Positions 705-34,897 of a DNA stretch of 37,606 nucleotides are shown here, piece by piece. The DNA lies in the NCBI GenBank assembly GCA_017465085.1, contig JAFTWW010000044.1:1-37606 (forward strand). Reading direction: 5' to 3'. Both the position numbers and the translations under genes were made by a program. The notes below the pieces were generated by a model. That model saw only the letters and a list, made by a program, of their open reading frames with translations. It did no database searches and was not told the origin of the DNA. The DNA comes from Clostridia bacterium. GTDB lineage: Bacteria; Bacillota; Clostridia; Oscillospirales; Acutalibacteraceae. Positions within the stretch are counted from its first letter, which is position 1, and every line of letters begins with the position of its first letter.

Positions 705-733
705 TTTACAAATAAAATCGGTTATGGTATAAT
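705..733 (+). promoter_or_regulatory. Vegetative promoter of leader RNA A
   Basis: TTTACA (705-710), a 17-base spacer and TATAAT (728-733). The predicted start, near G740, is exactly the first base of the long closing stem of the leader RNA. Confidence 0.8.
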
Positions 734-739
734 TAGTTT

Positions 740-909
740 GCGACACAATTTAATATCCACGTATATTTTTATGCAAGTGTGTGCATTTTATCTATTGGTA
801 AAAATGCATATGCTCTTTTTCGCATACTTGCAGTACGTGGAAATTGTGTCGCAGCAATGGAGCATGCGTTTTTCGGTGCGTAGGCTCTGTCTGCGCACTT
901 TTTTATTTT
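740..909 (+). promoter_or_regulatory. Structured leader RNA A with alternative antiterminator and terminator hairpins
   Basis: Bases 740-751 (GCGACACAATTT) pair perfectly with 841-852. Inside, 757-763 pairs with 834-840, 772-781 with 823-832, and 782-789 with 801-808. A linker AGCAAT follows. Then GGAGC+ATGCG (859-868) can pair with TGCGT...GCTCT (877-888) across a TTTTTCGG loop. That hairpin uses the 5' arm (876-883) of a terminator GTGCGTAG/CTGCGCAC (891-898) followed by a T run, so the two folds exclude each other. The AGGAGG of the next gene begins five bases after the T-rich tail. A second copy lies at 33753-33960. Both share TTGGTAAAAATGCA (here 795-808). I do not recognise it as T-box, SAM, c-di-GMP, TPP, guanidine or another familiar class; the ligand or signal is unknown. 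Confidence 0.65.
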
Positions 910-5026: not shown

Positions 5027-5177
5027 AAAAAACTTGTGAGCTAAACCGCACGAATGGACCGATTTACTGCGGCGCACAGGCAAAACTGCTTAATGCTGCT
5101 CGGTTCCCCGCCTGACATGGTTCACAGCCGCCCATCGCACAGGACCCGCCCATTCGCACGATTTAACGCACAAGCGC
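5027..5177 (-). ncRNA. ffs: Bacterial signal recognition particle RNA (4.5S-type)
   Basis: On the minus strand the Ffh-binding hairpin reads TGTCAGG ... GGGGAACCG ... AGCAGCA (about 5125-5093). It is enclosed by a nearly continuous stem: CTTGTG...CGTGCGAATGG (plus 5174-5150) pairs with CCATTCGTGCG...CACAAG (plus 5057-5033), with GTTAAATCG/CGGTTTAGC between the two parts. A T run (plus 5027-5032) ends it. A minus-strand -10 TATAAT lies at 5189-5184, giving a start near 5177. The position directly upstream of dnaX matches Firmicutes synteny. About 150 nt; no Alu domain was identified. End points are estimated from pairing. Confidence 0.88.
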
Positions 5178-14444: not shown

Positions 14445-15650
14445 ATGTCAAAGAAAAAATGCGTTGCAATGCTTCTGGCAGGCGGTCAGGGAAGTAGGCT
14501 CGGTGTTCTTACCGAGAAGATTGCCAAGCCCGCCGTACCCTACGGAGGAAAATATAGAATAATAGATTTCCCTCTTTCAAACTGTGTAAACTCGGGTATC
14601 GATACGGTGGGAATTTTAACCCAGTATAAGCCCTTGGAGCTTAACGATTACGTGGGCTCGGGTAAGCCTTGGGATCTTGACCGCTTTAACGGAGGCGTTC
14701 ATATTCTGCCTCCCTATCAGGGCCAGAAGGGCGGAGATTGGTATAAGGGCACGGCCAATGCCATATATCAGAATTTGGAGTTTATCGCCCGTTACGAGCC
14801 TGAATATGTGCTTATCCTTTCGGGCGACCATATTTATAAAATGGATTACGCCAAAATGATAAAACAGCATATCGAAACAAATGCCTCTTGCACCATCTCG
14901 GTTATGGAGGTACCCTTTGATGAGGCCTCTCGCTTTGGTATAATGAATACCAATCCCGATGGTAGTATCTACGAGTTTGAGGAGAAGCCCAAGAATCCCA
15001 AGAGCAATTTAGCATCTATGGGCATTTATGTTTTCTCCTGGGATAAGCTTAAAAAATATCTTACCGAGGATGAGCAGAAGGAAGGCTCCTCCAACGATTT
15101 CGGTAAGGATATAATTCCTGCAATGGTAGGTGCGGGGGAAACCATGATGGTTTACCGCTTCGATGATTATTGGAAGGATGTTGGAACGGTGGATTCCCTT
15201 TGGGAAGCAAACCTTGATTTGCTTAATCCCAAAATTGACCTTAATCTTGCCGATCCCGATTGGAGAATTTATTCAAGAACGAGTAGCTTGCATCCTCAGT
15301 ATATTGATGAAAACGCTAAGGTTGAAAACTCACTTGTTACCGATGGATGCCATATCTACGGCAGTTTGGATTATTCAATCCTTTTTGAAAATGTAACTGT
15401 GGAGCAGGGCGCAAGTGTTGAATATTCACTTGTTATGCCGGGCGCCGTTGTGAAAAAAGGCGCTAAGGTTAAATATGCTATTATAGCAGAGAATGTTACT
15501 GTGGATGAGGGCGCATGTATAGGCACCGAGCCCAGTGGCGAGGATTGGGGCATAACCGTTGTGGGTGCAGATATAAATATAGGTAAAAATGCAACTATAG
15601 GCGCCAAACAGATGATAACCAAAAATGTTGAGGAGGGTGAAAAGATATGA
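14445..15650 (+). CDS. glgC: Glucose-1-phosphate adenylyltransferase GlgC
   Basis: Start at ATG 14445 has AGGAGA 7 bases upstream. An earlier in-frame ATG (14409) overlaps the end of glgB and would add 12 poorly conserved residues. The 401-aa protein has the nucleotidyltransferase motif [17 protein letters not shown] (residues 9-25), [19 protein letters not shown], the sugar-phosphate loop [17 protein letters not shown] and a C-terminal left-handed beta-helix with hexapeptide repeats for allosteric control. It makes ADP-glucose for GlgA. It is followed, with a 4-base overlap, by glgD. Confidence 0.95.
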
Positions 15651-33717: not shown

Positions 33718-33746
33718 TTGCTAATTCGTTTTGTTTGTGATATAAT
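33718..33746 (+). promoter_or_regulatory. Promoter of leader RNA B
   Basis: TTGCTA (33718-33723), 17-base spacer, TATAAT (33741-33746). The start is expected near 33753, the first base of the closing stem. Confidence 0.7.
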
Positions 33747-33752
33747 TGATAT

Positions 33753-33960
33753 GCTACATGATATTCAATAAATTGAATATGGACTACTGTGCTTACATAG
33801 GGGTATTATATCCTTTTTGCATCCTTTAAGTTTTAATTTGGTAAAAATGCAAATTTCGCTTAATGGATGCAGAGTAGGTTCTGATTTATTGAGAATTGTG
33901 TAGCAACAATAGGAGTTTGCATTTTTCGTGCACTCTCTTATTGGGGGTGCACTTTTTTTA
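33753..33960 (+). promoter_or_regulatory. Structured leader RNA B with alternative antiterminator and terminator hairpins
   Basis: Bases 33753-33771 (GCTACATGATATTCAATAA) pair with 33886-33904, with a single mismatch if G-U pairs are allowed. TGCATCC (33818-33824) pairs with GGATGCA (33865-33871) and TTAAG (33826-33830) with CTTAA (33859-33863) inside. TTGGTAAAAATGCA (33838-33851) is identical to leader A. Then GAG+TGCA (33913-33921) can pair with TGCA+CTC (33929-33935) across TTTTTCG, excluding the terminator GTGCACTCTC/GGGGGTGCAC (33928-33952) with its T run 33953-33959. The GGAGG of lipoprotein 3 follows within ten bases. Same design as leader A. Confidence 0.65.
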
Positions 33961-33979
33961 TTTTATGGAGGAAAGAAAA

Positions 33980-34897
33980 ATGAAGAGACTTTTATCACTA
34001 CTTTTAGCATTAACTCTTGTTTTTGCTCTCGTTGCTTGTAGCAATGAAAAAGACACCGCCTCGGAGTCCGACACAAGCACCACACAAACGGAAGTGGAAA
34101 ATACCGACAACACGGAAACAACCGATAGCGATAGCGACACCACCGACAAAAGCTTGAGTGACACCAAAACACCGAGCAATAGCAATACCTCAAGTACACA
34201 AAATAACACAACCACAAATAACAAAGACAATACAACAAGCAGTAAACCAAGCAACGCAATAAACAAACCCACAATAAGTATGCCGTCCACGCCACCTGCA
34301 AAGGACACCACAACACCCACAGAGAGCACACAAACACCTACCGATGAGCCTGATGAAAATCCAGCCGACGAACCCTCTGATTGCGAGCATACCTATCCAA
34401 CAGTGACCTGCACCATACCCAAAATGTGTACCAAGTGCCATCACATTGCAGGCAACGCATTGCCTCACAACTACAAAAACGGCTCCTGTACAGTTTGCGG
34501 AATGGCAGAAATGCTTGTGACTTTTCGAGAGGGCTATTGGGTAGCCTATACGGTTAAAAGCGGCACAAGTGAGCAGGGAGAGATTCTCTCAGAATACGTA
34601 TTAGCCCCCGAACTAGACCACTTTAGCGGTTACATGTGCTTTTCAAACGCAAGTGCTTGCTTTCTTGACAAAGGCAAAATCACTTATAACGACAAAGCAT
34701 ATCATTCCGATTGGTACTACACCACATATCTGGAATGTACTTATGAGGAAAATGGAGATACCATTACCATTAAGGTAGGGCGTGAAACCCACTACTTTGA
34801 GTTTGTTGCCGCCAAAACAAGCGAAACACAACTTACCGTAATCTCCAGCACCAATACAGCATATGTTCCTGTTGGAATAGTGTTTGTGAAACAATAA
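33980..34897 (+). CDS. Lipoprotein with Ser/Thr-rich linker (lipoprotein 3), paralogue of lipoprotein 2
   Basis: Start 33980 (GGAGG 8 bases upstream); a longer in-frame reading from 33896 runs through the leader RNA and is rejected. 305 aa. Lipobox LVAC (Cys about 20). A low-complexity Thr/Ser/Asn/Asp linker spans about residues 25-130, then a CTKC ... GSCTVCG element and a beta domain (YWVAYTVKSG... to VPVGIVFVKQ) homologous to the end of lipoprotein 2 (IPAGTVF). The linker has an unusual ACA/ACC-rich codon composition. Probably surface-anchored; function unknown; controlled by leader RNA B. Confidence 0.72.
   Translation: MKRLLSLLLALTLVFALVACSNEKDTASESDTSTTQTEVENTDNTETTDSDSDTTDKSLSDTKTPSNSNTSSTQNNTTTNNKDNTTSSKPSNAINKPTISMPSTPPAKDTTTPTESTQTPTDEPDENPADEPSDCEHTYPTVTCTIPKMCTKCHHIAGNALPHNYKNGSCTVCGMAEMLVTFREGYWVAYTVKSGTSEQGEILSEYVLAPELDHFSGYMCFSNASACFLDKGKITYNDKAYHSDWYYTTYLECTYEENGDTITIKVGRETHYFEFVAAKTSETQLTVISSTNTAYVPVGIVFVKQ

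Follow-up and report, generated by a model that had tools for sequence, protein, structure and literature searches.

What does the long leader RNA in front of a lipoprotein gene on a Clostridia contig do, and to which family of RNAs does it belong? The contig, JAFTWW010000044.1 of the Clostridia bacterium assembly GCA_017465085.1, was analyzed over positions 1 to 37,606 (37,606 nucleotides, nt), hereafter the window, and a reading of its letters without database searches (the sequence-only reading) had noticed that this leader, copy B, shares its architecture and an identical 14-mer with a second leader, copy A, 33 kb away. We conclude that copy B very probably belongs to a family of cis-acting transcription attenuators, undescribed as far as searched and spread across the class, in which a pseudoknot-like pairing would set the outcome and for which riboswitch-like is the best reading. 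Our computations support the closing stem P1 and the pairings 2:3, 3:4 and 4:5, the sharing of strands among these pairings, the placement between promoter and gene, and the taxonomic range.

Architecture and alternative pairings of the leader

The copy B sequence from 33752 to 33961 folds at -72.2 kcal/mol, with a z score of -8.67 against shuffles (-7.55 for copy A), and in a search of the window's genome it is matched from 33790 to 33957 (67.1 bits, E value 6.7e-10) by R1, a covariance model built from 39 short-subtype members, copy A being one of these training sequences. The closing stem begins 6 nt past the -10 box, and in it a single mismatch separates two runs of 11 bp, so that the closing stem of the sequence-only reading is present but is longer than the 19 nt given there. 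P1 encloses an extra hairpin, the stem P2 and an apical hairpin, part of the 14-mer lying in the loop of the last, and 3′ of P1 follow CAAT, segment 3, the antiterminator with the overlapping terminator, the T-run, GGAGG and the lipoprotein gene (Table 1). The architecture first read from the letters, with its shared 14-mer (TTGGTAAAAATGCA, exact at 795-808 and 33838-33851), CAAT linker, overlapping terminator, GGAGG and lipoprotein gene, thus held up. The antiterminator had been described as GAG+TGCA with TGCA+CTC, and this pairing exists but extends further, to AATAGGAG..TGCAT with GTGCA..CTCTTATT in copy B (dots are unpaired; -12.8 kcal/mol) and to GGAGC.TGCGT with GCGTA.GCTCT in copy A (-12.3 kcal/mol). 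Two things go beyond that reading, namely the family-wide scale and the finding that the 14-mer is a third strand, which pairs with the 5′ arm of the antiterminator.

For the family as a whole we call the 14-mer region segment 2, the strand past the closing stem segment 3, and the 5′ and 3′ arms of the terminator segments 4 and 5. Each of the pairings 2:3, 3:4 and 4:5 shares a strand with the next, and neighboring pairings are therefore mutually exclusive. We infer the start site, the assignment of the ON and OFF states, the direction of the response, the ligand and the ability to act without a protein. Transcription would start at the base of P1, which encloses the apical hairpin with segment 2 (core AAAAAYGC), and segment 3 (core GCRUUUUUC) would emerge after P1. 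If segment 3 paired with segment 2, in a pseudoknot-like pairing across P1, the terminator would be left free and the gene would be OFF, and if segment 3 paired with segment 4, the resulting antiterminator would turn the gene ON, so that the outcome would be set by whatever governs the availability of segment 2. Taken as a simple duplex, with neither a penalty for the pseudoknot nor the energy needed to open the apical hairpin counted, 2:3 averages -16.7 kcal/mol and is the most stable of the three, the terminator averaging -14.7 and the antiterminator -12.1. Because segment 2 is transcribed earlier, 2:3 could form once segment 3 emerges, and termination would be the favored default unless the apical hairpin retains segment 2.

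Table 1. Positions of the two leaders, their parts and other RNA features in the window
Feature	Position	Strand	Basis or detail
Copy B, leader RNA of the long subtype, from P1 through end of T-run	33752..33959	+	fold z score, model R1
Copy B, promoter, sigma70-type, TTGCTA-17-TATAAT	33718..33746	+	
Copy B, closing stem P1, 5′ arm	33752..33774	+	fold; family covariation
Copy B, closing stem P1, 3′ arm	33883..33905	+	fold; family covariation
Copy B, extra hairpin between P1 and P2 (long subtype)	33777..33811	+	fold of copy B alone
Copy B, stem P2, bears apical hairpin	33812..33878	+	fold
Copy B, shared 14-mer	33838..33851	+	exact match
Copy B, segment 2	33843..33857	+	pairable with segment 3 (15 bp, -16.2 kcal/mol as duplex)
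Copy B, segment 3	33912..33926	+	partner is segment 2 or, within antiterminator, segment 4
Copy B, antiterminator hairpin 3:4	33908..33942	+	-12.8 kcal/mol; family covariation
Copy B, intrinsic terminator 4:5 plus T-run	33928..33959	+	terminator stem 33928-33952
Copy B, ribosome-binding site GGAGG	33967..33971	+	
Lipoprotein gene behind copy B, 305 amino acids	33980..34897	+	start at 33980
Copy A, leader RNA, short subtype	739..905	+	fold; model R1 119 bits, E 5e-20
Copy A, promoter TTTACA-17-TATAAT	705..733	+	
Copy A, segment 2	800..816	+	
Copy A, segment 3	859..873	+	
Copy A, terminator stem	875..899	+	
Small membrane protein gene behind copy A, 93 amino acids	922..1203	+	
T-box leader RF00230	36131-36383	+	121.6 bits
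Bacterial small SRP RNA	5053-5151	-	63.5 bits

Covariation of the helices

The sequence-only reading had named covariation among homologues as the test of a selected structure. We collected 208 elements by a regular expression, in which the core of 2:3 could hardly vary, and covariation was therefore counted on 103 members found by the model instead. These come from 100 loci picked among the listed order, class and own-genome matches; 75 also fit the regular expression, the cores of 6 recur among the 208, and no training sequence is included. Their alignment, A4, leans to stronger matches and to the short subtype, and copy B is absent from it. P1 and the terminator guided the fitting of A4, and their counts are thus favored; 2:3 and 3:4 lie outside the model.

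P1 and the terminator together have 98.4% of cells paired and double changes in 19 of 21 pairs, including all 12 counted pairs of P1. For 2:3, 96.4% of cells are paired (67.5% in the best slid register), and 8 of 14 pairs show double changes vs. 3.7 in shuffles. G-C is replaced by A-U in 13 and 6 sequences at two positions, and U-A by C-G in 32 and by U-G in 33. The antiterminator 3:4 has 93.3% of cells paired (73.7% in the best slid register), and neither a shuffle nor a slide equals its covariation score. No shuffle among 500 reaches the score of 2:3, and indeed the score of every tested helix lies above all 500, with the caveat, stated by the tool, that kinship among sequences can exceed shuffles without any structure. 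Other covariation measures are less clean, since some of those for 2:3, 3:4 and the apical pairing 1:2 are equaled by 22 to 104 of 500 shuffles, the number of pair types in 2:3, for instance, by 32.

Pairing was also compared in cis and in trans. Across the 208 elements, the extensions of segment 2 favor their own segment 3, the cis pairing being the stronger one in 65% of comparisons (P = 2e-24), a preference that is seen within the short and within the long subtype, and the antiterminator arms favor their own partner as well (P = 3e-27), the effect for 1:2 being smaller (P = 3e-5); all three P values assume independence among elements that are in fact related. A field-alignment check left out 22 of the 208 rows, copy B among them, in which the register was unset or the field failed. 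The variable core positions of 2:3 combine as TA in 81 elements, TG in 66, CG in 60 and CA in 1. The single C-A exception, L183, has neither a long closing stem nor a terminator and was retained in the set.

Several results weigh against the reading that we prefer. A tree-null test, made with our own script modeled on R-scape and not with R-scape itself, gave E < 0.05 over all pairs for three pairs only; P1 contains two of these, the terminator has the third, and 2:3 has none. The best three pairs of 2:3 have single-pair probabilities of about 2e-4 to 9e-4, at which 2 to 10 equally good pairs are expected among 11,781, so that their significance depends on taking the helix as prespecified, and five of the A-U pairs of 2:3 carry no usable variation in this test. 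For 3:4, 6 of 11 pairs are double-changed, a count that is equaled by 48 of 500 shuffles and by the register slid by +2. The apical pairing 1:2 is weak, with 81.8% of cells paired and slid registers that match its number of double-changed pairs. Behind 36 of the 208 elements no open reading frame (ORF) was recognized, in part because of contig ends. The sole cultured strain by title among the matches listed, Ruminococcus turbiniformis (L305), fits the pattern and is not matched by the model. Lastly, some trans pairings of segments 2 and 3 within the window's genome equal the cis pairings in strength, and cross-talk between copies is therefore possible.

That last point bears on a stand-alone small RNA or decoy that would act in trans and for which the downstream gene would be incidental. 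Besides the strong trans pairings, such an RNA would fit the tandem copies that have their own promoter and terminator and no recognized gene between them (for example L117, or the pair on C52 in the window's genome). We consider it improbable, since the extensions pair more strongly in cis than in trans, in the window's genome as well (mean -16.7 vs. -11.0 kcal/mol), and since a start codon lies 15-24 nt past the T-run in 122 of the 172 elements with a recognized ORF.

Taken together, the pairing and covariation of the helices in the 103 members support the selected antiterminator/terminator switch with compensatory changes that had been read from copies A and B. Of the covariation proposed as its test, the part that stood is that each helix score exceeds 500 shuffles, and the part that did not is pair-by-pair significance against the tree null beyond three pairs. 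Viewed as a riboswitch candidate, the family combines a conserved 5′ leader structure, whose helices covary, with an expression platform, although at the level of single pairs the tree null backs just P1 and the terminator; viewed as an intrinsic-terminator attenuator, it has an antiterminator and a terminator that are mutually exclusive and selected. The comparative evidence for the proposed three-way choice of strands is good.

Copies, distribution and downstream genes

Within the window, the 14-mer has four matches at up to two mismatches vs. 0.59 expected (2 of 100 shuffles reach four), and a one-mismatch match near 15580 falls within a 413-amino-acid ORF. The window's genome contains it exactly four times, whereas the reversed pattern used as a control is absent. 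R1 finds nine matches there at E ≤ 0.01, seven of them good, including A and B, and the other two being one weak match and the antisense of copy A; two of the seven, copy A and the C24 copy, belong to the training set. In rough global alignments the identity among the seven copies is 38-77%, with pairing preserved. Two tandem copies on contig C52 have different core bases, AAAAGGTGTT with AACACTTTTT, and retain the 2:3 pairing. Tandem copies also occur at L117 (G029:C26), L171, L346 and L358, as in G000:C52; every such copy has a promoter-like region and a terminator of its own, and between the tandem neighbors examined there is at most a very short ORF.

A mobile repeat resembling a miniature inverted-repeat transposable element (MITE), or a phage-borne element, would account for the shape of P1, which is that of a terminal inverted repeat, and for the many copies per genome. 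MITEs occur as near-identical copies with target-site duplications, and the divergence of the seven copies with pairing kept, together with the conservation across the family of a promoter and a terminator that lie outside P1, makes this explanation very unlikely, although no search for target-site duplications was made. As for phages, scanning 2.9 million viral contigs with a strict pattern gave 21 matches, four of which the model confirmed as true members, and some downstream proteins match phage families; the four, however, are two pairs of equal score, length and G+C content, and the rarity of the element in viral contigs at the strict pattern disfavors a phage origin.

In bacterial genomes the family is widespread. 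The 14-mer is exact in 27 of 70 genomes of the genus, and the downstream motif searched alone is found in 39 of 70, some of these matches being due to chance. Four 14-mer matches in the genus (L008, L009, L031 and L020) were set aside as chance matches without the downstream motif; L013 lacks the exact downstream motif, yet it resembles a true variant. Across the taxonomic family, a pattern combining both parts occurs in 63 of 398 genomes, and 36 of 135 genera are represented. R1 matches 142 of 394 genomes and 72 of 168 genera of the order (E ≤ 0.001), 99 of 391 genomes of the class (E ≤ 1e-4), and 1 of 398 in a sample of the phylum (E ≤ 1e-6), namely the window's own, the phylum sample also including some genomes of the same order and class without an R1 match. 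All such counts are lower bounds, because searches of more than 40 genomes scored at most seven candidates per genome under stricter filters, and some genomes carry at least seven copies. A pattern scan of named genomes returned at least 120 records, nearly all of them metagenome assemblies labeled Clostridia, Oscillospiraceae or Ruminococcaceae, and of five records tested with the model, four matched. Fifty-five of the 208 pattern-found elements are of the long subtype, and 82% of 200 elements, vs. 22% of shuffles, have a -10 box matching at least 5 of 6 positions immediately 5′ of P1.

The recognized ORFs behind 172 of the 208 elements fall into 95 sequence clusters. Localization was counted by our own simple hydropathy rules in genes of at least 60 amino acids, the targets coming from all 208 elements and the background being ORFs called mechanically on 120 contig stretches (L187-L306). 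Transmembrane-like stretches occur in 76 of 122 downstream genes vs. 279 of 788 background ORFs, a signal-like N terminus in 58 of 122 (48%) vs. 134 of 788 (17%), and a lipobox in 17 of 122 vs. 22 of 788. Downstream genes are thus diverse and enriched for secreted and membrane proteins, as a tendency and not a rule. The envelope theme suggested by the two genes of the window is borne out by the signal-like N termini and is not universal, since 46 of 122 genes have no transmembrane-like stretch.

Scans with Pfam, PADLOC, PHROGs and NCBIfam covered 147 of the 166 distinct complete downstream ORFs. The commonest Pfam families among these 147 proteins are BspA-type repeats (10), a second leucine-rich repeat family (8), AMP-binding (7), SHOCT (6) and zinc ribbons (5); the 305-amino-acid lipoprotein behind copy B matches no Pfam family at or above the cut-off. 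A defense-gene theme was rejected, with each PADLOC family reaching at most 3 of 147 proteins; single strong matches exist (for example a type II methyltransferase and PDC-S29). In PHROGs, families with no named function match up to 10 of the 147, and a single protein matches each of two superinfection-exclusion families. Certain proteins recur, among them a small cysteine-rich protein of about 60 amino acids (MKCEN-CIYE type; L107, L123, L125, L131, L144 and L152) and a 77-78-amino-acid protein (MNIKVELLKNYI type) behind the strong class-level members L347, L348 and L351. Off the envelope theme, similar long proteins of acyl-CoA-synthetase type lie downstream at L121, L128 and L148.

Relation to known regulatory RNAs and the candidate signal

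At the gathering threshold of Rfam 15, copies A and B are unmatched, and the matches in the window are the T-box and SRP RNA elsewhere in it. The elements at 16 loci with strong members are likewise unmatched, only tRNA and Gut-1 being found elsewhere in those loci, and a permissive scan of four loci from the window's own genome gave MIR2679 as the only match on the element (20.5 bits and E 4, with a gathering score of 97). A known family was therefore ruled out as far as Rfam 15 goes. Full-text literature searches, which do not reach supplementary tables where an unnamed candidate may be listed, did not find the family, nor does the element appear in the portions of the main text of PMC11109978, PMC8632094 and PMC8040213 that were covered. 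Judged by Rfam and these literature searches, the family is undescribed as far as we have searched.

One published orphan riboswitch candidate, the trpB motif (SRC-39-1) of Firmicutes and Fusobacteria, resembles our family in the portion of PMC11109978 covered, in that it is widespread, precedes varied genes and has a terminator with an antiterminator region in the P1 shoulder. Compared by description and not by sequence, it differs in having at least two hairpins, in lying mostly before an amino-acid-type ABC transporter, and in showing no pseudoknot in the part of the paper covered (PMC11109978).

Among well-known leaders the element has several partial counterparts. Like T-box leaders, it toggles between an antiterminator and a terminator. 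T-boxes require UGGN at the bulge that binds the tRNA end, and we rejected T-box identity because RF00230 leaves both copies unmatched, though it detects the window's own T-box, and because the base before the conserved GG varies. ANTAR-controlled leaders carry two adjacent hairpins with six-base loops, and no such pair is seen in the lowest-energy folds of A and B, the copies compared on this point. Leader attenuators of the trp type work through a chain of alternative pairings, 2:3, 3:4 and 4:5, and the element has the same chain. In contrast to trp-type leaders, its upstream ORFs are not enriched, and its 2:3 pairing spans a closed stem and would release the terminator instead of preventing it. 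Attenuation mediated by a ribosome on a short upstream ORF in the leader might be suspected because the T variant of the 14-mer includes ATG, but the core ATG is found in just 54 of the 103 members, and a Shine-Dalgarno-like motif with a start codon occurs in 32 of 208 leaders (15%), below the 25% of shuffles; we give this explanation almost no weight.

The closest logic is that of the expression platform in transcription-terminating riboswitches (SAM-I and others), with which the element shares an aptamer-like 5′ domain, a strand used by both antiterminator and terminator, and a gene directly downstream. Unlike the known classes of these, it has no Rfam match or known ligand, and its targets span no single metabolic pathway. 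The conserved unpaired residues in the 103 members are AUA past the closing stem, the first G of GG and CA of the linker, and because they flank the pseudoknot strands in sequence, we favor a ligand that stabilizes 2:3. Most likely, a small molecule or ion would bind at these residues, stabilize 2:3 and turn the gene off.

The main rival to a small ligand is an RNA-binding protein that would hold the apical hairpin or the pseudoknot and in this way pick the antiterminator or the terminator. A heterogeneous regulon that is not one metabolic pathway would suit a protein, as would the small number of unpaired residues conserved at 90% or more in the 103 members. Nevertheless, among the 25 families listed of the 58 downstream Pfam families there is no RNA-binding family, a weak counterargument, since no co-occurrence search for candidate proteins was made; overall we regard protein control as rather unlikely, and as a first guess we prefer the small ligand. 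We tentatively propose, at a little less than even chances, that the element is a new riboswitch class or a second-messenger RNA receptor of the class Clostridia, which would relay a global signal to surface, secreted and accessory genes, with the pseudoknot acting as an anti-antiterminator. Such a class, if real, would occur in about a quarter of the genomes sampled in the class and in slightly more than a third of those sampled in the order, often in multiple copies.

The family of transcription attenuators itself is real, and a structured regulatory RNA without an Rfam match in so many genomes of the order and the class marks a large gap in the catalog of gut-bacterial RNAs. With a covariance model and defined switch strands in hand, the family is directly testable. 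Many of its targets are lipoproteins, surface proteins with BspA-type repeats, small membrane proteins and unknowns, and the signal, once found, would make gene control in this largely uncultured group accessible and offer clues to many genes that lack a name.
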